23,128 bases of DNA from Saccoglossus kowalevskii (taxonomy: Eukaryota > Hemichordata > Enteropneusta > Harrimaniidae), in assembly GCF_000003605.2 (NCBI RefSeq), contig NW_003139331.1, positions 63,729 to 86,856 of the forward strand, read 5' to 3'. The notes beneath the pieces are model-generated. The model was given only the letters and a program-made list of their open reading frames with translations. It was not told the origin of the DNA and made no database searches. Below are positions 1,219-21,432 of the stretch, piece after piece. The position numbers and the translations under genes were made by a program. How positions within the stretch are numbered: position 1 is the stretch's first letter; the number at the start of each line of letters is the position of its first letter.

Positions 1219-1501
1219 TATGTGACATAAATATTCTGGAATACATTCAATATTGGTGACATAGTTTATCTCAAATGAGGTACAATTCAAAGAAAAATTC
1301 AAAAGTGCAAATATGTTTTGAGCGAATGCGTAAATGACAGAGATGCATCATAGTGGTAAAAATAAGTTGTATTTTAACCACTCAGTATATAAAACATTTT
1401 GGTTTATTTCTGCTCCTATATGGTAGGGATTTTTATAGTACCGTACAATGCAATGCAAAATTGTTGGTGTGTAACAAATGCTCTTATCTTATCTGCATTA
1501 G

Positions 1502-3133
1502 GTGCGTGTGTACAGTATCCATACAGCTGTGATCTGTGCGACAAGTCCATTAATTCAATGATAGAGTTAGAAGTACATTACCAATGCTGGCATAACGTGA
1601 TAACGTCATCTGGTAATAACCGTAAAGTGAGATTCAATAAACCGAAAACAAGTGTACTACGATCAACTTCCGTGCCGGCTGACAAAGATCAGACTTCAGT
1701 GATCTCGGCGGTTACGCAGCTTCCTTCCATTTTAAATGGAGCTTCGTGCGAGGATGAGGCAGAGCCGAAAAACTCGCTATCTAATGACAAATCTGGTTTA
1801 GAGGTTAACCAGGACATTGTTGGTGCACTGCACGGTGTGGCTTCTGCTTTGCAACCGATAACTAGTGCTGGGTACAGTACGACTGATGCAACGCCTGAAA
1901 CTCAGCGCATAGTGGGCGTGTTGCAGAATGTAGCAACTGCCCTTCAGCCGCTACTAAGAGCGAATCCTGATGCAAAATTGCAAACCGCTGATAAAGCAAT
2001 GCTAGATAAAATGGAAAAAGAATCAGTTGAGCAGTTACTGGATCTCCATAACTCGTTAGAAAAAGCGTTAAAAATGATGATATCAAGCGAAAGGGAGACC
2101 AGTAAGAGGGATGTACCTTTTGTCTGTACGTCTCTGACGTTGATTGTTAATGGCACAATAGAGCTGACTGCCAAACCAAAACAAAAAGAGACTGTTAATA
2201 GAACAAAAACCCAACATCAGATAAATAGTGATATAGTACATTCGCTTATTGGGAAATCACAGTTGGTTCCTAAAATTGCAATCCGGGAATACAAGCAGTC
2301 TGTACCAGTCAAAGCTACCCTGTGTAATCAGGTTTTTAACGATAATCAGTTACCACCGAGAATGGTAATGGTCAGGTGTCCGACCACACAAGCAGTGCCG
2401 ATGATGAAAGTTCCAATGCATCAGATTTCAAGAACATCTGCACCGCAATCTGCGATTCCTATCAGATCAATGTCACCCATAATCCTGACTCCGTCTGTCA
2501 TTGCCAACTCGGGCAAAGCTATGAAGTCGCTACCAAAAGTTGTTTTTGTTCCAGGACTGCAAAGCCCACGTACTAGCATACAACCGATCTGTCACGAGTC
2601 TGTGACGTTGACACCTCAGACAGCAACATCTACTCCAACATTACTTCAACAGACTGTGCAATTTGCACAAGCCTCAATGTTGCCAAGATCCAGGACCCAA
2701 AATTTGATGAAGGAAAACACGGAAGAAAAAATCAATAATCTGACCACACAGTTGCCAACACCTATAATGAAAAATACTCAGTGTACAACAACTCAACAGC
2801 TGCAACCGAATAGCGTACAAGCATCTACAAAACCTACTGTTCCCATAGCAACCACCATCAGTATGGACGTTGATGACCTCTTAGTACGAAAAAGACCTTT
2901 ATCGAATTCAGACACAGAATCGACTTGTCCAGCTAAGCAGCAAAGAGTTGAGAGTGTGGCGCTACACACAAGTGGGGCCGATACCACTACAAACACTACA
3001 GACATTAGTGGACATGCGTCACAGATTCATACGATTCTTCAAAACCGGTTTCTTGGTCCAGCAGGGGTGATGTATACAATGGAGCCTGTTGCTAAGAAAA
3101 GTGTTGGTACACCAGCTGGGAATAAGGGTCTGG
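1502..3133 (+). CDS. Zinc-finger gene, large internal exon
   Basis: The acceptor is TCTGCATTAG/GTGCG and the donor CTGG/GTAGGT. The open frame continues upstream to 1399, but the part before 1502 reads as intron. The exon begins with the finger CDLC...VHYQCWH. Two related helical motifs follow: DIVGALHGVASALQP (about 1816-1860) and RIVGVLQNVATALQP (about 1909-1953), which look like an internal duplication. A predicted helix EQLLDLHNSLEKALKMM is at about 2029-2079. The rest is low in aromatic and acidic residues and rich in Pro, Thr, Ser and Gln. A basic stretch at about 2884-2950 could be a bipartite nuclear localisation signal. The exon enters after one base of a codon and leaves after one base. 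Confidence 0.88.
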
Positions 3134-5967
3134 GTAGGTCTCATTTATAGTATAGATTGTACCCATTCTACATAGTGTAATTACTGTATTCCTCTATTAG
3201 TAGTGAGCATACAGGTAAAATAACAGTTGGATATATGGCCACTTTATGTCACATTTTAATCATCCAACATTAAATACAATTGTTGGGTTTTGTGCACTTC
3301 TTTTGGAGATGCGCTTCTAATAAAGCAAATACTGTATGTACATTTCACTGCATGGAATCAGTACCCTCAATCATTTTTTGTGTTGGAGATTCAACCATTT
3401 ATACGAGCCCAGTGGACGCTTTTCCAAAACATGTTCTGTAGCCGTTCCAATCTTACGAGAGACAAATATTCAAAAGTTGGTGAAAATCACAAATTAATGT
3501 AGCAGTGATAATTTCGTTGGGTTCCTAAAGACACAGTCACAAAATATTTTCTAAAAAGTGCTATAAAATTATCAAATTGGGAAAATTCTATAGTACTGTT
3601 GAATTTAGATCACCAGAAATTAATGCGAGATGACTTTAATTTCTAGTAATTTACTATGGTAATATGAAATAAAAAGTTAGCGTTTGTGTCGCTTTGTTCT
3701 TGTTTACAAATGTGGTGGTTATTCCATTATGCTTGCTAGCTCATGGTCATGGATGGTCACCAATGCTTATAAAAAATTGAATATAATTTCCAAGTGGCTA
3801 CAGTCTTGAATAACATTTTTTTGAAAAAGATGGACAAAACTATTTTTGTTTGTTTTTTGTGAAAGGTGAAAAATTTGGTTTTGGTGCTCAGAGAAGGTGA
3901 AAGTTTATTACTATTTGTTTGTTTGTTTCATATCTAGCTGTAGACTCCACTGTGAGTACTGGTAATGATGCTGTGTCAGTGGAAGTTGATATGACAAATG
4001 CAGTACAGGAACAAAACGTCAGTGTAGTGCTACGTACTAATGCATACATGAAAGACAGCAACGGTCAAGCCACGGAGAATAAGCCGACAGACAGCAGGAG
4101 TCAAGCCACGGAGAATAAACCGACAGACAGTAGGAGTCAAGCCATGGATAATAAGCCGACAGACAGCAACGGTCATGCTGTGGACAATAAGCCAATAGAC
4201 AGCAGCGGCGTGATGTCAGGTGATTGTGAAGGATGTAGGGAATCTGTACCCTTCGTGTTTGAGCATTTTTCGAAAATCAAAAATGTACACAGGGTAAGAG
4301 ATTAAAATTTTTTTACAAGTCACACATTATGAAGTGATGTCATCAAGAATGGGATTTCGACGTTATTGCTCTTCGTTTTTTTGGGGAGGGGAATAATCAA
4401 TACACGTTCCGGTAAAAAAAAAGTACCACAAATGTGTATCACTGCTCTCTAAGCTGATATGATGGGTCACTGATATGATGCGTCGCTGATGTGATGCATC
4501 ACTGATATGATGCGTCGCTGATATGATGCGTCGGTGATATGATGCGTCGGTGATATGATGCGTCGCTGATATGATGCGTCACTGATATGATGCGTCACTG
4601 ATATGATGCGTCACTGATGTGATGCGTCGCTGATGTGATGCGTCGCTGATGTGATGCGTCGCTGATGTGATGCGTCGCTGATGTGATGCGTCGCTGATGT
4701 GATTCATCGCTGATGTGATGCGTCACTAATGTGATGCGTCGCTGATGTGATGCGTCGCTGATATGGTGCGTCGCTGATATGGTGCGTCACTGATGCACAG
4801 GGATCATTTGTGATGCAGAAATGTGCACATTTTCTGGTGCAACAAAAGCTTGTACACTGACATAGCAATCTTCAAATAAGTGTTACCATGGTTATGGGAT
4901 TTGTATTTGGTAATGTGAAATTCACGATTTATAAACAATGCATGTGTAAAAATGAAAGAAATGAGTTCTATTTTGACTCAAGATTCTTACAAATTCAGTT
5001 CTGTTTAATAGAGGATTAACCAGTGTCACATAACACGTTGATTTTCTACCATCTCATTTTCCCATATTTGAATACAAAAAGTAAATTTTTATTGCATTTT
5101 ATAAAATGTAACCTGCATAAATTGATTCCATATTTTTTCAATTCGTTTGATCAAGACCTATTGTTAGTGGGAAATTATGTCCAACCAAGGGCATTAGGCA
5201 AAAGTGTTGGATCAGTGATGCATTCTGTTTTGAAAGATTTGTGGAATAATGTAATTGTAATGTAAGTGTACTAGTTACACTCCCTTGGTTAAACTGGTGA
5301 CTAGACAAAATAATAATTAATAGATATATATGCAATAAATATACAAACAAACTGAATACTACGCCATTATATCTGTATTTTTTTGGTGTCTGAGCAGGGC
5401 GCAAAACCAATACGAGTGAAAACATGTACTGCCTTTTTTATTTCAGACTACAATGTTAATAAGAACTTATTTTAGCCAAGAAGGAAAATATTCATGTGTT
5501 ATTTCTAGTATTGTACTACTCGAAGCACTTTGTCCTACACTTGCTCCAACTGGTCCAAAATTAATGAATTACAGAAGTACATAAAAATGACCAAAATATT
5601 GCTCCACATTTTTCCCGGAAAAATGTATGGCATTGGAAGTTCAAGGAAACATCAGAATTGACTTGATGACCGAAACGTGATGCTATGTTTTCAGATATTA
5701 AATATAACCGAAGTTGTACACTAGATACAAACACTAATAGTTGTTCCCAATATTTTGATGTTTGTAATGCAGGTGACGTTTTCTGATTTAAAGACTGCAC
5801 CATATAAGTGCCCAGACTGTGTATACGAAACCAGCATAGATGTGATGTTGTTATCACACCATTACGCACAGTTCCACGGTGGCTATAAATGTCCACAGTG
5901 TGAGACTGTGAGTTGCGATGCAGCCAACCTCAAACTCCACTTAGATTCTAAGCACCTAGTTATATAA
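1502..5967 (+). CDS. C2H2 zinc-finger protein, 3' part of gene (three exons)
   Basis: The coding exons are 1502-3133, 3938-4293 and 5773-5967. Phases match at both joins (1/1 and 0/0) with GT-AG introns, and the product is about 726 residues plus an unseen N-terminus. An N-terminal C2H2 finger (C-x2-C-x12-H-x4-H) lies near residues 8-29. A long Ser/Thr/Gln/Pro-rich, probably disordered region with a basic cluster (VRKRPL...KQQR) follows. Next comes a four-fold 12-residue repeat, and two C2H2 fingers sit within the last 55 residues. Fingers set this far apart suggest a nuclear DNA- or chromatin-binding regulator rather than a poly-finger array factor; that is inference. I do not recognise an ortholog. 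The 5' exon or exons are not identified. Confidence 0.85.
3289..3330 (+). repeat. Dispersed repeat, GATGCG/TCTAATA family, copy 2
   Basis: It carries GGAGATGCGCTTCTAATA followed by AAGCAAA, as in copy 1 (GAAGATGCGATTCTAATA then GAGCAAA). Confidence 0.5.
3790..3900 (+). repeat. Diverged interspersed repeat, TTTTGTGAAAGGTGAAAA type
   Basis: The order GTCTTGA, AACATTTTTTTGAAAAA, TTTTTTGTGAAAGGTG and GGTGCTCA is repeated at about 11850-11945 (GTCTTGA, AACATTTTTGAAAAAA, TTTTGTGAAAAGTG, GGTGTTCA). A weaker relative lies at about 18050-18170. It is an old repeat of unknown class and carries no ORF. Confidence 0.4.
3938..4293 (+). CDS. Zinc-finger gene, exon with 12-residue tandem repeat
   Basis: The acceptor is TTTCATATCTAG/CTGTAG and the donor CACAGG/GTAAGA. 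The exon takes the split alanine codon (G from the previous exon plus CT) and ends on a codon boundary. It encodes an acidic, polar segment with no Cys pairs except CEGC near its end, and the repeat DSxxQAxxNKPT in four copies. It is probably a disordered linker. It joins in frame to the two C-terminal fingers of the next exon. Confidence 0.85.
4054..4197 (+). repeat. 36-bp coding tandem repeat, four units
   Basis: Four units of exactly 36 bases start at 4054, 4090, 4126 and 4162. The encoded unit is DS(N/R)(G/S)(Q/H)A(T/M/V)(E/D)NKP(T/I), and a fifth partial DSSG follows. Units 2 and 3 are most alike, and units 1 and 4 share DSNG. The length is always a multiple of three, so copy-number change would keep the frame. 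Confidence 0.9.
4294..5772 (+). other. Intron 2 of zinc-finger gene
   Basis: A phase-0 GT-AG intron, GTAAGA ... TTTGTAATGCAG. The first third is occupied by a 16-bp minisatellite (4454-4789). The remainder is AT-rich. The open frames at 5023-5265 (+) and 5561-5896 (-) show no splice context or recognisable motif, and I treat them as chance. Confidence 0.75.
4454..4789 (+). repeat. 16-bp minisatellite, 21 units
   Basis: The unit is CTGATRTGATGCGTCR, at a strict 16-base spacing from 4454 to 4789 (336 bases, 21 units). A truncated unit follows at 4790. Two variants alternate in blocks: GATATGATG in units 1-10 (apart from unit 3) and GATGTGATG in units 11 onward, with GATATGGTG in the last two. 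This shows expansion by block duplication. It lies in an intron, and no part is open over the whole array. Confidence 0.95.
5773..5967 (+). CDS. Zinc-finger gene, C-terminal exon with two C2H2 fingers
   Basis: The acceptor is TTGTAATGCAG/GTGACG, phase 0, matching the previous donor. Two fingers follow each other: YKCPDC...HHYAQFH, whose histidine pair is C-x2-C-x12-H-x4-H if the second H of HH is used, and YKCPQC...LKLHLDSKH, also C-x2-C-x12-H-x4-H. A short GG linker joins them, not the TGEKP type. The stop TAA is at 5965-5967. A consensus donor CAG/GTGAGT sits six bases after the stop (5974), so the 3'UTR may be spliced, or a different isoform may exist. Confidence 0.9.
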   Translation: MTFSDLKTAPYKCPDCVYETSIDVMLLSHHYAQFHGGYKCPQCETVSCDAANLKLHLDSKHLVI

Positions 5968-11022: not shown

Positions 11023-14000
11023 CTATAAAAATACACAATACAAACATTTTTTAAATATCATTTTTCATAATATCCAAATAAATAAATATATGAATAGTTC
11101 ATCTATTCTCCCTCCCACCAACCTGCTTCTCTAGCCTATCCCCTCAGGTTCCTCATTTTAATATTCATTCTTAACCTCACTATCCCTCACTTTCTCAATG
11201 TCCATTCTTACTTTACCCTGTCACTTCATCTCAGTGCCTTAATCTGCCTTTACCTTATCTCCCCTCCTTGTACTGCCTCAGTACTCCAGTCTGACACTCC
11301 ATCCTCAACCTGTCGTTTGCCCTCAGACCACATCCTGTCTCCCTCATCCTGCCAATACTCGCCACACCCCGTCCCATCCCACGTCATCCTACCCCTCCCC
11401 CTCTGACCAAACCTAATGTACACACACATACTAACCTCATTTGTAAACCTTCTTGTGAAGAAAGGAATAAAATATTTGGTGTCCACTCGGATAAAACCTT
11501 TCAGATTAGGTTTTACAAAATTAAATTCGTATTCTTCCTCCGTTAATTCCGATAAGTGCTCAGCATCAACAGCGTGGCCCTGAGAAAAATGAGAAAATGC
11601 GCATTAGAATAATAATGACAAATTCATGTGAAACTGTGTAGCAATGAAAATTTTCCTGGGTTAAGACCTGGAGTCATATTCACTAATTTTGTGCAGCAAA
11701 TATTTCACTGTACATTATCCATTTGTTAAAGGATTATAAGAAGCACTGTTCACTGAAATCATTTATATCAGTGTTTTTTTGTATTTTTCCACAAATTGTA
11801 ATTTTCTAAGGGTAATTTTGGACCAAATGATCATTTCCCATTATCTACAAGTCTTGATCAACATTTTTGAAAAAATATTGAAAAATTGTGTTTATTTTGT
11901 GAAAAGTGACGACAGATGACTTTCGGTGTTCAAAGGGTTAAAAGGTCAAACGATTATTATAGTTCAGAAGTTGTTCTTCAAGTTACAGTAAACCATTAAA
12001 GCGGGAGGGTCGTCACCTGCACATGTGCGGGAATTGAGTCCCAAGCGACGATGACACACACTAAAAACGCAAAGGCGTCATGGGTAGACGCTTGTTTGTA
12101 AACAATGGCACGCAATGGCCATCTGACGCATGCGCAGGTGACGACTCCCCCGCTTTAAGTTTTTGCTGCTAGAAATGTTCACGATTTTTATGGCATTCCG
12201 GAAGACCCTAGATAAATTTTTACTGCTACCAAATTTGGAATTTTACTCATGAACATTTATCTCTTGTGAAATTAAAGCAATTCACAGAATTCTATTAACA
12301 TACAGTGAGTAAGTGACGTAGACATTGATTGTTAAAATGTCATGTGATATTAAAGTGAAAATGCAAAATGGAAAGCTAACATGACCAGTCAAACAGTATG
12401 AAATGTATCCATGAGAACAGTTTATGAAGACTTACCATTTCCTCTGTCTTGCTGAGTGATAACTCCTTTGGCTTCTTTTCAGCTTTTAAGAACTACATAA
12501 TGGAACAGAGGTGAAATACTACGTGAGAATAAAGCATTTATCATGGGTCCCACAAATAAATGTTACGTTAACACTCTGTACGCCATATAGAGGCTGAATG
12601 TTTCTCGTAATATTTAGTTTAAAATTTGCATAGCACATAGACAAAGATGTAATGTAACACAAGGACAAAAATATTGAAACAAAAATAATGGTTTTAACAC
12701 ATGGTCTAATGAAAGCTTCCACATGTAGCCGAAATGAACGATCTAAGCCGGCAATGTGTTAATATGTAATGAATGCACAAAACTATGGGAAACGCATTTA
12801 CTCAGATGGAACCGATAATGTGTTAACTCTTTTAGAAGTACATCTTTAATAGTAGTCCATGTGAACCCAGAAATGAATTTATGGTATACAGGATTATTAA
12901 GTATTTATATGTATTACAAATGGAGTGAATATTGTAAATGTACCGGGGTAATTCAAAAAGTGGTACCACTATTGTCACCATAATATTAATCACACCACTT
13001 CCATCATCAATTAATTAATTTGTTTCTTACCAGTAGCAATGGGAATGAAAACTCATTCTTTGAAAGTGACAAGTTCATTGTTACAATTCTTCCCAAATTA
13101 AATGCATGCAATAGATAGTAACACAATGTCCTAATGTTTGGCACACACCCTCACCTCACCCAGCAACTATATTTTGATATGTGTGTATATTGCCCAGAAA
13201 AAGACACCAAACACGTAACTAAGACAGACTTACCTTAAGTAATGGAAGCGTTGAACCTCCCAAAATTAAAATCGTGAATAAGACGATAATAAGGGTTGTT
13301 GTAACGAGCACATGCCTCGTTTCTGGATTGGCAAATTTTAAATGTAGACTTAGAGCAAATGCAATAGCACCACGTAGACCTAGAGACAAAGAAAGGTGAA
13401 ATGTGTCTTATTACATATGTTGTACAGGGGTATCTGAAAAGGTGGAACATCCTTAAGAAAAAGAACATGTGCTGTTCCATTTCAAGAATTTCACTTACAT
13501 GTAAACAGTGATGAGTTCTGATAAAATGCAAAGTACTTACAAGGGTATTTGCAGAGTTGTGTACATACTCGATTAGGTTGCTTATTTTTAAATGAAATTA
13601 CCAAGCTCAATAACATTTTGAAGGAGCTGAAAATGTTTTCTCGTGAAATAAATTGAGATTTCAAAACTGAGAGTTGTCAGATAACACATATGGCTTAATT
13701 ACAAAAAAATAGAACTAGAAATGGAATTCATGTACATATTTCAAATTTGAAGTCATAATTTCTGTCGATGAGAGGGAGAATAATCCACTATTATTTCCCT
13801 AATTATTACTGTGATTATTCATTCTTATTATTGATTCAATATTATTCAATTGTGTTTCAGTGCTTTCTTGAATTTTTCATATTGGGTTTATTCAATTCAA
13901 TTGTCAAGTGTATAGCACAAATAAGGATAGCAGACGCCATTTCAATGCTATTCTCTTATTAACCAATCATAGCTCATAGCAATATGAACCAATCAGCACT

Positions 14001-17000: not shown

Positions 17001-20000
17001 AGTTCTGAACGTCTGCTGTACCGTAATCTGCGTCACCGGTGATAGATTATGATGTGTGTAATGAGACATAACAATACCACAAAACAATATTGCCATTATG
17101 CCTAATTAATCAAATAAAAAATAAAAACAATATTCTAAGTTCGACGGGTCAGACATTTGGGGCCTAAGAAGCAATCAATTGTCCTTATTTTGTTCACTCT
17201 TGACACACAGACAAATAGTTTAAATTCCAAATCAGTTATTGAACACACATAATATTTTTAATATATTTTTTTTTTTAATTTTTATCAAATTGTTATAGAA
17301 AATTATGTTTAATTCGGTTCTAAATCAACGAAAAAAATGCCATAAAAATAGGTAAAATTTTGGCTGGAAAAGTAAGTTCAAGATTAAATTTAATGCAAAA
17401 AAATAAAATAAAACCACTAACAATTGAGAGAGGAATATACATAAACATATTTCCATTATACATTTTATTAAAAAGATGTTAAATTATTCGTTTGATACCT
17501 TCCAAATACAAATACTGTAGAATACTTTATTTTCGCTTGAATTTCGCTGAAATATATTTTTCCTATATTTTACATTAATCTCATCAAAAATCAGTGAAAA
17601 TAAATTCCAAGCAAAACACCCAAAAAGCCTTTTCAGCGAAAATTAATCCAGCGAAAATAAAGTATTCCACAGTAAACTAGCAACAAGTTATTTTTTAATT
17701 GCAAAAAAAAAGAAATTGAATAAAAACTTTAGTCATATTTTCACCTAAAACCGACAAAAATTAAATTTTCACAATAGCATTTCTCTATTAATAGTCAATA
17801 ATGCATATTCGCTTTCTATTATTAGACTAAATGACTGCCATATAATATTAGCTGTCACTACCACATGTACACACAGTTAAATACTAAATAATATATTATA
17901 CACACATCAATCTATTGCAGAAAAAGTAATTACAAATTGTCTAAATGAACTGCATTTTGAAGCCAGACTTTATGTATTTCAATTTTTTTGCAATATTGCA
18001 AATTGTCAGCGACATGAATTCAAAATTTTTATGTATTTTTCAATAATTTCTTTGTTAATTTTGAACCAAAGGGCTTTATTTCTTATTGACAAAATGTGGT
18101 GAAAATAATGCTGCTTTATTTTGTGAAAGGTTAAAAAAAATCAAATTTTGTTCTACTACGTTCAATGGTCATTAAATATTCTTGGACACAGCTGTTTCAG
18201 AACAACAAACAATGCCTTTGATTCAAAGTATCTCATACTGGGATCAGTACAATGAGATAATTTTTATATTTCCATTGAAATTCAACCAATGGCAAGTTGC
18301 AGGTATACATTTTTTTTTTTAACTTCATGAATAACTGACAATGGAAGATAAAAGATGCTGGTGAAGATAAAAACAGCGACAGCTTTATGAAAATTATATA
18401 TTTTGAAAATACAAAGAACTTGTGATAAAAATAGAACTATAAGTATGCATTTTATTCTTTTTTTATATTTGATCATATCAAAATTTAATTACGCATGTTC
18501 TGTCTAGTTCCGCAGAGAACATACATAGAACATAAATAAATCATTTAAAACACACATGTCAAAACAAGATCCATGCGCCAACATTGCAGTGTTTAACTGC
18601 TAGTACCTACCTGATAGCTCGATACCTTCCGCCAGTCCATATGGTAAATACGAAAATATCAAGATCATTCCAAATTCTAATGACGGTGTTTTTCTGAGGT
18701 CGATATGTTTTAACATGTGGACAAACGTCAAGGAAATATACACAGCACAAATTCAACCACAAATGCAATATTTTACACAATTATCATTATCGGATAATAT
18801 TGTATATTTACAAGAGTTTTAAATGTTAAAATGTTTGTGAGCAATTTATTTATTGAAACTGATTTCCTATTTTTATTTGTTTTATTTTGGCAACTGTGCT
18901 CTATTTTTGTATTCAGCCCTTAAGGTAGATAGCTACCATTAAAAAAACATGTTTAAAACATTCTTCAAATCCAGCAACTGAAGGAGTGGCTTACTGTAAT
19001 GTTCAAAATTCTGAAAAAAATTGTCACCGAACAACCTCAAAATTTATAAAAAATGTGTGTTTTGACTAGTTTATAATTGGATCCTATGGCAGAAACATTC
19101 CATCACATCTCAGAATTTCAGGAACCTATGCTAAAAAATGATAAACAGTGTTAATAGGGCTACATATGGCTGCAATGAACAAATAAAAAACTTTGAATAT
19201 TAATTATCCACGGAATATTGTGTTTTAATACATGGATTCCAAAATTTCAAAATGTTCCAAAATTGTTTCCTTAGAAACACATCCTTACTCCGTAAAACTG
19301 TTAAAAATGAATGACATACATGTGTGAATCATCAGGAAACAATTTTTGAATGATTTACTTTGATAAATTTTTTTCTATGTTTTAATGGTAGCAAACTTTT
19401 TTATTTTATAAATTGCATATCTTAGTGATTTTAATCTCAAAATAAATATAGAGAACCAAATATAGCTCAAATCCACAAAATATGGTTGACAGAAATAACC
19501 AATCACCATATATGACAAACCAAGGTCAAAAATCATACAACACTATTTGGTTGGTTGATTGGTTTGTTTGTTTGTTTGTTACTATATCTTGATAAAAATA
19601 TACTATGAAATGAAGATGTTGATTTGGCATGAAATATATTGTGTCTGCACTTCAAAATAATTTGATGTATATGCAAATCATGTACATTTGCATTTCTCAA
19701 TTATTTCATATTCACTTTTAGCACTTTTCCACTAACATTTTGGTCAACATTTTGTGAAGTTGTATTTATTTGTTTACACTTTCATTGCAGAGATATGATT
19801 TTCTGTTAGTTACATGTCTTGAACCAAATTTTCGAATAAAAAAAATAAAAAAAAAATGTGGGTTATTTTCATTAAGAATTAAAAAGAATATGGCTGCCAT
19901 AATTGTTTTATCAGTAACGTATACGCTTACGTAAATTTTAATGATGTGCGATTTTTGGTATATATTCGCTCATATTGAAGATGCGCATCTAATTTTGTTG

Positions 20001-21432
20001 CCAAAATAATGGTTTAGTTTTTTTCCATTTTACAATAAACCATCCTGTACCATATTGATCACAACGTAGCCCCCCCCCCCCCTCAGAATTGAGCTACTAG
20101 TATTAATATATTCACATAAAGCCATTGTCATTTTGGTGTAAAACCTGATAATAATCACTCACGTTCACAGAAATCATTCAGCAATTCAAAATTAAAGATA
20201 CAATGATACCACTTCTCATCATGGTATCTCACCAAAAGAGAAACTGTCTCATTCTGAAATGATTTGATCGAGAAACTGTATCGATTAATTATCTTTAAAA
20301 TCCACAATTCTATTATTCACATATCACGCTTAAAAATTGTGAAAGTTTCCATAATTATTGAATTATGAAAATGCGATATTGCCATAAGCAGTATAATATA
20401 GATGCAGAAAATAATATCATATTTCCATGGCAATATAAGGTGACGATGAAAAATTGCACCAATTTATATTTTGATCTTTTGAAAAATAAACTACCGAGTA
20501 TTATTTACAAGACTGAGAGGAAAGCTATATCTGCAAAAAAATACTGTTTTTGTTAAAATCAGATTTTTTGAAAAAATGAGCGGCAGTACAAAGTATGTAT
20601 GCACATACACTACAGGATATTTGAGTAAATTGAGATGATGATGAAAGGTTTCCAGGGAAACAAATGTTTTGTGATTTTCAATTATAACTAAATTCACCAA
20701 TTACTTTTTAGGAGTTGAATGACACAAATTGCACATCAATATACAACAAAACCATGAGCGACTGTTTGACAATAATCAATGTTATCATACATGTATACAT
20801 GAATTACATTTTGCAATTGTTCTCATCACCAGATGAAATGTGTTATTTGGCTATCATTTAGATGATAGTGTCCACTCTATTGAACCACAGAACAATGGAT
20901 AGAGAAGATCTGGCAACATGTACCACGGATATCACTACTATACATGTACATACCAATTTAAGAAATTTTGTGAGATTTGGAAAATCACAAAATATTGGAT
21001 CCTTAAAAGTTAAAGCAGGGGAGTCGTCACCTACGCATGCGTCAGATGGCCATAGCATGTCGTTGTTTACAAACAAGCGTCTACCCATGAGCCTTTGCGT
21101 TCTTAGCATGTGTTGTTATCATCACTTGGGACTCAATTCCCGCGCATGTGCAAGTGACAACCCTCCTGCTTTAAAGGCAGTCTAAATGTTTGATTTTCCA
21201 GACATAACGTCATTAGCATACCACAACAAACACATACATGTATTAAAGTGATGTCACTTTAGATGTTGTTTTTTTCATTTAAAAAAAGGATATAAGAGCA
21301 CTTGCAAGACCGAAAAGTATTCCGATACCCGCTGACGCAAAAAACATTATACAGAAGTATCCAATGGCTTGGAAAAGCGCTGCTGTGGAGCTGACATCTT
21401 TCATGGCAGGCGAATCTAACATGATGATGGTA
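10915..21432 (-). CDS. SLC9A8: Sodium/proton exchanger NHE8 (SLC9A8), last nine coding exons
   Basis: The exons (- strand order) are 21294-21432, 18611-18716, 16985-17101, 15689-15771, 14341-14452, 13234-13379, 12436-12492, 11436-11579 and 10915-11022. All phases agree and they give 336 residues with a stop. Family members exchange Na+ or K+ for H+ across Golgi/endosomal and apical membranes. The visible part holds the later membrane helices with LKHIDLRKTPSLEFGM, MSHYTHHNLSP, LFGRATNIYPLS and FSGLRGAIAFALSL, then a cytoplasmic tail with EHLSELTEEEYE and the acidic C-terminus. NHE8 proteins are about 575-580 residues, so roughly the first 240 residues, including the ND ion-binding helix, lie beyond the right edge. 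These NHE8-specific motifs distinguish it from NHE1-5 and NHE6/7/9. Confidence 0.96.
11023..11435 (-). other. Intron of SLC9A8-like gene, purine-rich on coding strand
   Basis: GTTAGT ... TTTTTATAG. Between about 11100 and 11400 the + strand is strongly C/T-rich, so the transcribed strand is G/A-rich. This is a compositional oddity compared with the AT-rich surroundings. No exon or ORF of note. Confidence 0.7.
11436..11579 (-). CDS. SLC9A8: SLC9A8-like, tail exon
   Basis: The acceptor is TTTTTCTCAG/GGCCAC and the donor ATGAG/GTTAGT, both phase 0. The 48 codons include EHLSELTEEEYE and, near the end, PFFTRRFTNE. These are conserved NHE8 tail blocks in the cytoplasmic C-terminal region. Confidence 0.96.
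11850..11945 (+). repeat. Diverged interspersed repeat, second copy
   Basis: Related to 3790-3900 through GTCTTGA, AACATTTTTGAAAAAA, TTTTGTGAAAAGTG and GGTGTTCA in the same order and orientation. Confidence 0.4.
11996..12158 (+). mobile_element. TTAA-flanked MITE, copy 1
   Basis: The ends TTAA-AGCGGGAGGGTCGTCACC and GGTGACGACTCCCCCGCT-TTAA form an inverted repeat of about 30 bases, including CGCATGYGC-type dyads. TTAA flanks both sides. The inside includes GTAGACGCTTGTTTGTAAAC. The copy at 21010-21174 matches in reverse orientation. TTAA target sites suggest piggyBac- or Kolobok-type mobilisation, but the family is not fixed. It is GC-richer than its surroundings. Confidence 0.85.
12436..12492 (-). 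CDS. SLC9A8: SLC9A8-like, 57-base microexon-sized tail exon
   Basis: The acceptor is ATTATGTAG/TTCTTA and the donor GAAATG/GTAAGT, both phase 0. It encodes FLKAEKKPKELSLSKTEEM, which corresponds to the basic juxtamembrane stretch and the LSKTE..M block of NHE8. The length of 57 is a multiple of three, so skipping it would keep the frame. Confidence 0.92.
12493..13233 (-). other. Intron of SLC9A8-like gene
   Basis: GTAAGT ... CCATTATGTAG. AT-rich, with no repeat or exon recognised. Confidence 0.7.
13234..13379 (-). CDS. SLC9A8: SLC9A8-like, exon with GLRGAIAFALSL helix
   Basis: The acceptor is CTTTGTCTCTAG/GTCTAC and the donor CTTAAG/GTAAGT. With the G from the previous exon it encodes GLRGAIAFALSLHLKF, an acidic/basic loop, and the last membrane helix VTTTLIIVLFTILILGG followed by STLPLLK. 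The GLRG motif is a hallmark of the exchanger core. From memory, vertebrate NHE8 has PY where this protein has AF after GAI, so this position looks more like the NHE6/7/9 type. Confidence 0.96.
13380..14340 (-). other. Intron of SLC9A8-like gene with antisense promoter-like motifs
   Basis: GTAAGT ... TTTGTCTCTAG. It contains two CCAAT boxes and a TATA box on the + strand (13963-14050). The open frame at 13768-13962 (+) has no recognised content. No exon of the exchanger is missing here, because the flanking phases match. Confidence 0.7.
13963..14050 (+). promoter_or_regulatory. CCAAT-CCAAT-TATA promoter-like arrangement, antisense in intron
   Basis: CCAATCA at 13963-13969, CCAATCAG at 13989-13996 and TATAAAAG at 14043-14050. 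The second CCAAT is 50 bases from the TATA box, the usual spacing for a TATA promoter, which would start near 14073. The first ATG downstream (14071) opens only 11 codons. It could drive an antisense transcript or be the control region of an old retroelement. Confidence 0.4.
14341..14452 (-). CDS. SLC9A8: SLC9A8-like, exon with LFGRATNIYPLS
   Basis: The acceptor is TTATTACTTCAG/GTGTTA (phase 0) and the donor TTTAGCG/GTAAGT (phase 1). It encodes VLVLFGRATNIYPLSLIV, a charged cytoplasmic loop NRFREHKITRKM, and the start of the next helix SIMWFSG. All are conserved NHE8 core elements; the loop carries the basic cluster. Confidence 0.97.
14453..15688 (-). other. Intron of SLC9A8-like gene
   Basis: GTGAGT ... 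ATTACTTCAG. AT-rich. Open frames on the - strand at 14453-14569 and 15060-15278 have no supporting motifs. No mobile element recognised. Confidence 0.65.
15689..15771 (-). CDS. SLC9A8: SLC9A8-like, exon with TCIFAYLGLAIFSF
   Basis: The acceptor is CTTCTTTTACAG/AAACTT and the donor AGCATA/GTGAGT. The first two bases complete a glutamate codon started by the previous exon. It encodes ETCIFAYLGLAIFSFKHEF and the start of the next helix AAFVIWSI. This is the core E-T-C-x-F-x-x-L-G helix shared by NHE8 proteins. A MITE ends 24-25 bases upstream of the acceptor. Confidence 0.97.
15796..16097. mobile_element. MITE with GGGCGGT..CGCATGTGCGA inverted repeats, next to 3' splice site
   Basis: The left end AAAGGGCGGTAGTCATCGCG and the right end, read on the - strand, AAAGGGCGGTGGTCGTCGCG match for about 34 bases, including GCATGTGCGA. 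The left flank is TTAA and the right flank TTAT. ATTT on both sides is an alternative target duplication. The inside differs from the 11996/21010 family, though the end style (TTAA, AAAG, GCATGYGC dyad) is similar. It has no transposase. Confidence 0.75.
16241..16255 (-). promoter_or_regulatory. CTCF-like motif
   Basis: The - strand reads CCACTAGAGGGAGCT, one base off the bilaterian CTCF core CCASYAGRKGGCR. Related AGAGGG(T/C)GCT matches occur at 773-788 and 10801-10814 (+). Motif match only. Confidence 0.3.
16406..16617. mobile_element. TA-flanked MITE, CTGTAAAA termini
   Basis: The ends TA-CTGTAAAAGGGTTAATT and AATTAGTCATTTTACAG-TA are inverted repeats that extend to CACTGGGTTTTAATTT / AAATTTAAACCCAG. 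Internal CAGCGAAATTTAAA and CACTGAATATG motifs repeat. It shares the CTGTAAAA terminus with 10329-10686. It is non-coding. Confidence 0.75.
16985..17101 (-). CDS. SLC9A8: SLC9A8-like, exon with MSHYTHHNLSP
   Basis: The acceptor is GATTAATTAG/GCATAA and the donor ATTGCAG/GTAAGG, phase 1 at both ends. It encodes GIMAILFCGIVMSHYTHHNL and then SPVTQITVQQTFRTAAFIA. The SHYTHHNLS block is among the most NHE8-specific stretches known to me. The 117-base length keeps frame if skipped, but skipping would delete a membrane segment. Confidence 0.97.
17102..18610 (-). other. Intron of SLC9A8-like gene
   Basis: GTAGGT ... TTTGATTAATTAG. Very AT-rich. It contains the TA-flanked MITE at 17511-17676 and a weak relative of the 3790 repeat at about 18050-18170. 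No exon seen. Confidence 0.7.
17511..17676. mobile_element. TA-flanked MITE, AGCGAAAATAAA family, copy 2
   Basis: Inverted ends TACTGTAGAATACTTTATTT (from 17513) and AAATAAAGTATTCCACAGTA (to 17674) pair with one mismatch over 25 bases. TA flanks each side. The order of internal motifs (TTTTCGCTT, TTTCGCTGA, CAGTGAAAATAAATTCCA, TCAGCGAAAAT, CCAGCGAAAATAAA) is the same as in the copy at 1015-1218. No ORF. Confidence 0.85.
18611..18716 (-). CDS. SLC9A8: SLC9A8-like, exon after U12-type intron
   Basis: The exon starts directly after CCAC with ATG TTA AAA CAT, phase 0, and ends TATCAG/GTAGGT after one base of a glycine codon. It encodes MLKHIDLRKTPSLEFGM, then the helix ILIFSYLPYGLAEGIELS. The LKHIDLRKT.SLEFG loop is typical of NHE8. 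The first AUG is internal, not a start. Confidence 0.97.
18727..18735 (-). promoter_or_regulatory. U12 branch-point sequence TTCCTTGAC
   Basis: A perfect match to the TTCCTTRAY consensus. The branch adenosine (18728) lies 11 bases before the last intron base (18717), within the narrow range used by U12-type introns. Confidence 0.9.
18920..19400. mobile_element. Possible TTAA-flanked foldback element, one end eroded
   Basis: TTAA-GGTAGATAGCTACC begins at 18920. AGCTACCATTAAAAAAACAT (18931-18950) pairs with ATGTTTTAATGGTAGC (19377-19392). The outer part of the right end does not match, so it may be eroded. No coding capacity. Confidence 0.3.
19958..19995 (+). repeat. Dispersed repeat, GATGCG/TCTAATA family, copy 3
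   Basis: GAAGATGCGCATCTAAT preceded by a TTTGGTAT stretch, as in copy 1 at 27-62. Confidence 0.45.
21010..21174 (-). mobile_element. TTAA-flanked MITE, copy 2 (inverted relative to copy 1)
   Basis: TTAA-AGCAGGGGAGTCGTCACC ... GACAACCCTCCTGCT-TTAA. The inside reads GTTTACAAACAAGCGTCTAC, the complement of the corresponding part of 11996-12158, so the two copies face opposite ways. A GC-rich patch of about 165 bases in AT-rich intron. Confidence 0.85.
21286..21293 (-). promoter_or_regulatory. U12-type 5' splice site ATATCCTT
   Basis: It directly follows the exon end GCTCTT (Ala-Leu). It matches the minor-spliceosome consensus at all eight positions. No usable GT lies at the homologous exon boundary. 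Confidence 0.9.
21294..21432 (-). CDS. SLC9A8: SLC9A8-like, first visible exon
   Basis: The acceptor is CTTAATTACAG/TACCAT. One base completes the previous codon, then TIIMLDSPAMKDVSSTAALF leads into the helix QAIGYFCIMFFASAGIGILF and GLASAL. It aligns with the DVS...FLQALDYF..MFFGSA..G...GLISAL region of NHE8. The preceding exon, expected to end in the NDAV..V segment after two bases of a codon, is not found in the remaining 1.7 kb. Confidence 0.94.

Follow-up and report, generated by a model that had tools for sequence, protein, structure and literature searches.

Minor introns have already been reported in SLC9A8 and its relatives, and the intron described here is an expected further example. 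Drosophila Nhe3 and human SLC9A7 belong to the NHE6/7/9 subfamily of Na+/H+ exchangers, which is paralogous to the gene considered here. The AT-AC intron of Nhe3 (CG11328) and SLC9A7 is marked as U12 in both columns of a table in PMC2831892. Going by that table, the likeness is one of class, in that a Na+/H+ exchanger gene carries an AT-AC intron of the U12 type. SLC9A8 itself is named in a passage of the review PMC8329584 among the U12-intron genes with activated cryptic U2 sites. This would be the same gene with a U12-type intron, and the passage gives neither position nor subtype; two of the three sources cited for the statement do not name SLC9A8 in their main text.

SLC9A6 is handled as a minor-intron gene in a section of PMC6865273, and plant NHX6 appears among the tested U12-intron transcripts in a section of PMC3422263. 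Two U12 positions are common to animal and plant Na+/H+ antiporters according to a passage of PMC2426677 (citing Zhu and Brendel 2003). These antiporters are of the same family as the present gene, a likeness at family level, and such common positions would make the U12 introns concerned very old. Molluscs and the brachiopod Lingula are described as relatively rich in minor introns in the relevant part of PMC10639083. A sequence-only reading of the DNA had held that minor introns are documented in Na+/H+ exchanger genes, which agrees with these partial sources for SLC9A8, SLC9A6, and Nhe3/SLC9A7.

Structure and identity of the exchanger gene

The window, the whole stretch of 23,128 nucleotides that was analyzed, forms the right-hand terminus of C3054, a contig of 86,856 bases in a 572-Mb genome of 4830 contigs. 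Nine minus-strand exons, from 21432 to 10915, join into 336 codons in one frame with a single final stop. The exon 5’ of the AT-AC intron (21294..21432) is 139 nucleotides in length and ends in ...FGLASAL. The exon 3’ of this intron (18611..18716) is 106 nucleotides in length and begins with MLKHIDLRK.... The third to ninth exons lie at 17101-16985, 15771-15689, 14452-14341, 13379-13234, 12492-12436, 11579-11436, and 11022-10915, respectively. Among the eight intervening introns, the first is AT-AC and 2577 nucleotides long, and the other seven, of 413 to 1509 nucleotides, are GT-AG.

The joined protein matches the Na+/H+ exchanger membrane domain (PF00999) at 1.6e-31; the two flanking exons run alone against Pfam gave no match. 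The best relatives with a solved structure are NHE9 (7.2e-51) and NHE6, and NHE8 is absent among the 17 solved-structure matches in all. The SLC9A8/NHE8 label comes from a sequence that we take to be human NHE8 (KHIDLRKTPSLEFGM, LSELTEEEYE), and by sequence the minus-strand gene appears to be an SLC9A8/NHE8-like animal exchanger.

A whole-genome search with the joined protein returned 11 places. Nine are the gene’s own exons and two lie in a distant exchanger on contig C4510, so one copy was found. The search for 5’ exons with an NHE8-like N-terminal query returned one place only, within another exchanger gene, where the sequence looks like an N-terminal stretch of NHE1/3 type. On C4510, a 180-codon open frame (L037:1413-1952, reverse strand of that locus) resembles the first half of an exchanger of NHE1/3 type; the other exons of this type lie approximately 42 kb away on C4510, in the same orientation. 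At gathering scores, Rfam returned nothing for the window. Viral contigs yielded two pattern stretches when scanned, and neither was confirmed to be related.

The AT-AC intron

The intron (18717..21293, minus strand) is in phase 0, a minority phase that averages 22% of minor introns in the relevant part of PMC10639083. It opens with the U12-type 5’ splice site ATATCCTTT (21285..21293) and closes with TTCCTTGACGTTTGTCCAC, in which the AC of the 3’ splice site occupies 18717..18718; the next exon, ATGTTAAAACATATCGAC, begins at 18716. The branch-point motif TTCCTTGAC (18727..18735) places the branch A at 18728, 11 nucleotides from the exon. In U12-type introns of the AT-AC subtype, the 5’ splice site reads ATATCCTT and the A of the branch motif TTCCTTRAY lies about 10-13 nucleotides from the intron 3’ end. 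The donor and branch motifs each match the U12 consensus at nine of nine positions. The exon end at 21294 (...GCTCTT), the intron from ATATCCTTT to TTCCTTGACGTTTGTCCAC, and the in-frame resumption SAL/MLKHIDLRK had all been proposed in the sequence-only reading, and all were recovered exactly on the minus strand, with the join in phase 0. The in-frame stop that it had expected on read-through is also present, where ISFF is followed by TAA as the fifth intron codon.

The mRNA is unchanged if the join slides by one nucleotide (TA-CA) or two nucleotides (AT-AT). The U12 motifs favor AT-AC over these slid joins.

Alternative joins and explanations

Alternative joins were sought up to 60 nucleotides from the donor, and from 80 nucleotides before to 60 nucleotides after the acceptor, with stop-free, in-frame GT-AG, GC-AG, AT-AC, and AT-AG pairs counted. 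There are 18 such joins including the AT-AC join, which is the only one that neither gains nor loses residues. Its junction is gapless against the NHE9 and NHE6 chains (the best five of the 17 solved-structure matches). A nearby GT-AG pair could be the true join if the motifs were present by chance, and taken singly they offer little resistance to this reading. ATATCCTT occurs once on both strands of the window where 1.01 occurrences are expected by chance, and 1.12 chance occurrences of TTCCTTRAY are expected; with either motif due about once per window, neither is significant alone. Genome-wide, ATATCCTTT is found in 3040 places and its reversed control in 7333, and single matches are therefore uninformative for want of enrichment. 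Chance was nevertheless rejected, because the probability of both motifs at the ends of the frame-restoring join is approximately 3.7e-9 (first-order Markov). A GT-AG join was rejected as well, since the five GT-AG pairs among the 18 would each cost a conserved region 16 or more residues, and the nearest of them removes 48 nucleotides. This combination of chance motifs and a GT-AG join is very improbable.

Excision of the AT-AC intron by the major (U2) spliceosome is about as improbable. Major-spliceosome AT-AC introns do exist (PMC8280824, in the passage concerned), but here the donor and branch point fully match the U12 motifs at the right spacing, and the explanation was rejected on that ground. 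U12-type introns have no separate polypyrimidine tract, but the share of pyrimidines ahead of the acceptor, 0.68 versus 0.54-0.79 in the seven GT-AG introns, fails to set the AT-AC intron apart. Least probable is that the copy is broken or a pseudogene and is not spliced at 21294/18716. The 5’ exons were not found and the contig stops at the right end of the window, but contig breakage could account for the absent part; a single open frame runs through all nine exons to one stop, the splice sites are good, and this is the only NHE8-type copy found in the whole-genome search with the joined protein.

The intron at 21293-18717 is thus very probably a genuine, ordinary A-type (AT-AC) U12-dependent intron, with its splicing predicted from sequence. 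Its motifs, their spacing, the frame, the lack of a residue-preserving GT-AG alternative, and the U6atac encoded in the genome all bear out the U12-type AT-AC class given in the sequence-only reading. In the predicted reaction, U11 and then U6atac would pair with ATATCCTTT. U12 would pair with TTCCTTGAC, leaving the branch A bulged out 11 nucleotides from the exon. The minor spliceosome would link ...GCTCTT to ATGTTA between codons.

Minor-spliceosome RNAs

The U6atac snRNA is specific to the minor spliceosome. Two U6atac loci were located in the genome with a 33-nucleotide pattern (one and two mismatches; the reversed control gave 0 places). Rfam, for which the cut-off is 33 bits, confirmed both with scores of 136.2 and 111.8. 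The copies lie at L031:1486-1610 and L032:1486-1616. In the L032 copy the internal stem is disturbed, and a tRNA gene lies approximately 900 bases away on the opposite strand. The 5’ part of U6atac can form seven pairs with the donor, with a predicted duplex of −7.1 kcal/mol. This duplex ranks 95th by energy among the intron’s 2565 12-mers, so the pairing is consistent with U6atac recognition and not specific.

The U12 snRNA model RF00007 gave no matches in a search that scored just 44 of 18940 candidates and detected U12 in none of 14 control genomes. A 22-nucleotide U12 pattern with up to three mismatches was found in two places (three in the reversed control), neither of which is U12 by Rfam. 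A gapped pattern was found in four places (two in the reversed control), none of them U12 by Rfam, and three of the four have one repeat-like sequence in common. Since the 5’ exons of the exchanger gene were not found, the genome assembly is probably incomplete, and the missing U12 match therefore says little.

A candidate second minor intron

The acceptor of the exon at 21432-21294 contains TTCCTTAAT (21446-21438), which agrees with the U12 branch motif at every position. After its branch A, an AG occurs at 6 nucleotides and an AC at 9 nucleotides. A distance of 6 nucleotides from branch to acceptor is shorter than usual, and the 9 nucleotides to the AC would suit an AC end, with the exon start shifted by one codon and the frame kept. 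By post hoc arithmetic, the chance of such a motif at nine acceptors with seven allowed places is approximately 0.0015. Two motif-plus-AC places per window are reached in 12 of 100 shuffles, so two are not rare. The pyrimidine share at this acceptor is 0.57, and the donor of the preceding intron lies off the contig.

That this exon is flanked by two minor introns, the preceding one being a candidate, is a tentative reading of the sequence to which we give somewhat less than an even chance. If true, the gene would have two consecutive U12 introns, possibly at the two animal/plant antiporter positions.

Repeats and neighboring sequence

The AT-AC intron contains a short MITE-like inserted repeat with inverted ends (21005..21177), 173 nucleotides in length. 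In the within-window comparison it is 88.5% identical to 11993-12163, which lies in another intron. The sequence-only reading had placed transposons, in the plural, inside the AT-AC intron; the within-window comparison shows this one element only.

Two related inverted-end repeats with TTTTCGCTG motifs, at 1013-1220 and 17508-17674, are approximately 88% alike over 129 nucleotides and make up another family of short insertions. Between the two genes, a tandem minisatellite recognized by eye (4453-4795) is composed of GACGCATCACATCAGC-like units of approximately 16 nucleotides. Plus-strand open frames at 1393-5967 may belong to a neighboring gene. Within them, 5725-5964 matches the C2H2 zinc-finger model PF13909 at 1.1e-6, above the cut-off, and a 585-codon open frame at 1393-3150 has no Pfam match.

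Age and significance of the intron

The exchanger on C4510, which we take to be a paralogue of the NHE1/3-type subfamily, has an exon that is continuous through the homologous place (GLLTGF-VTKF), so the intron position is not common to that gene. An NHE6/7/9-type gene was not found with an NHE6 query, which returned six places, three in the window gene and three in the C4510 NHE1/3-type gene. The literature makes it plausible that the AT-AC intron may be old and kept, as the sequence-only reading had suggested.

Knowledge of minor splicing is unchanged by the intron at 21293-18717. A gene finder restricted to GT-AG introns would be expected to mis-model the AT-AC join and truncate the exchanger gene. 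The intron would add one animal more to those with a minor intron in this Na+/H+ exchanger family.
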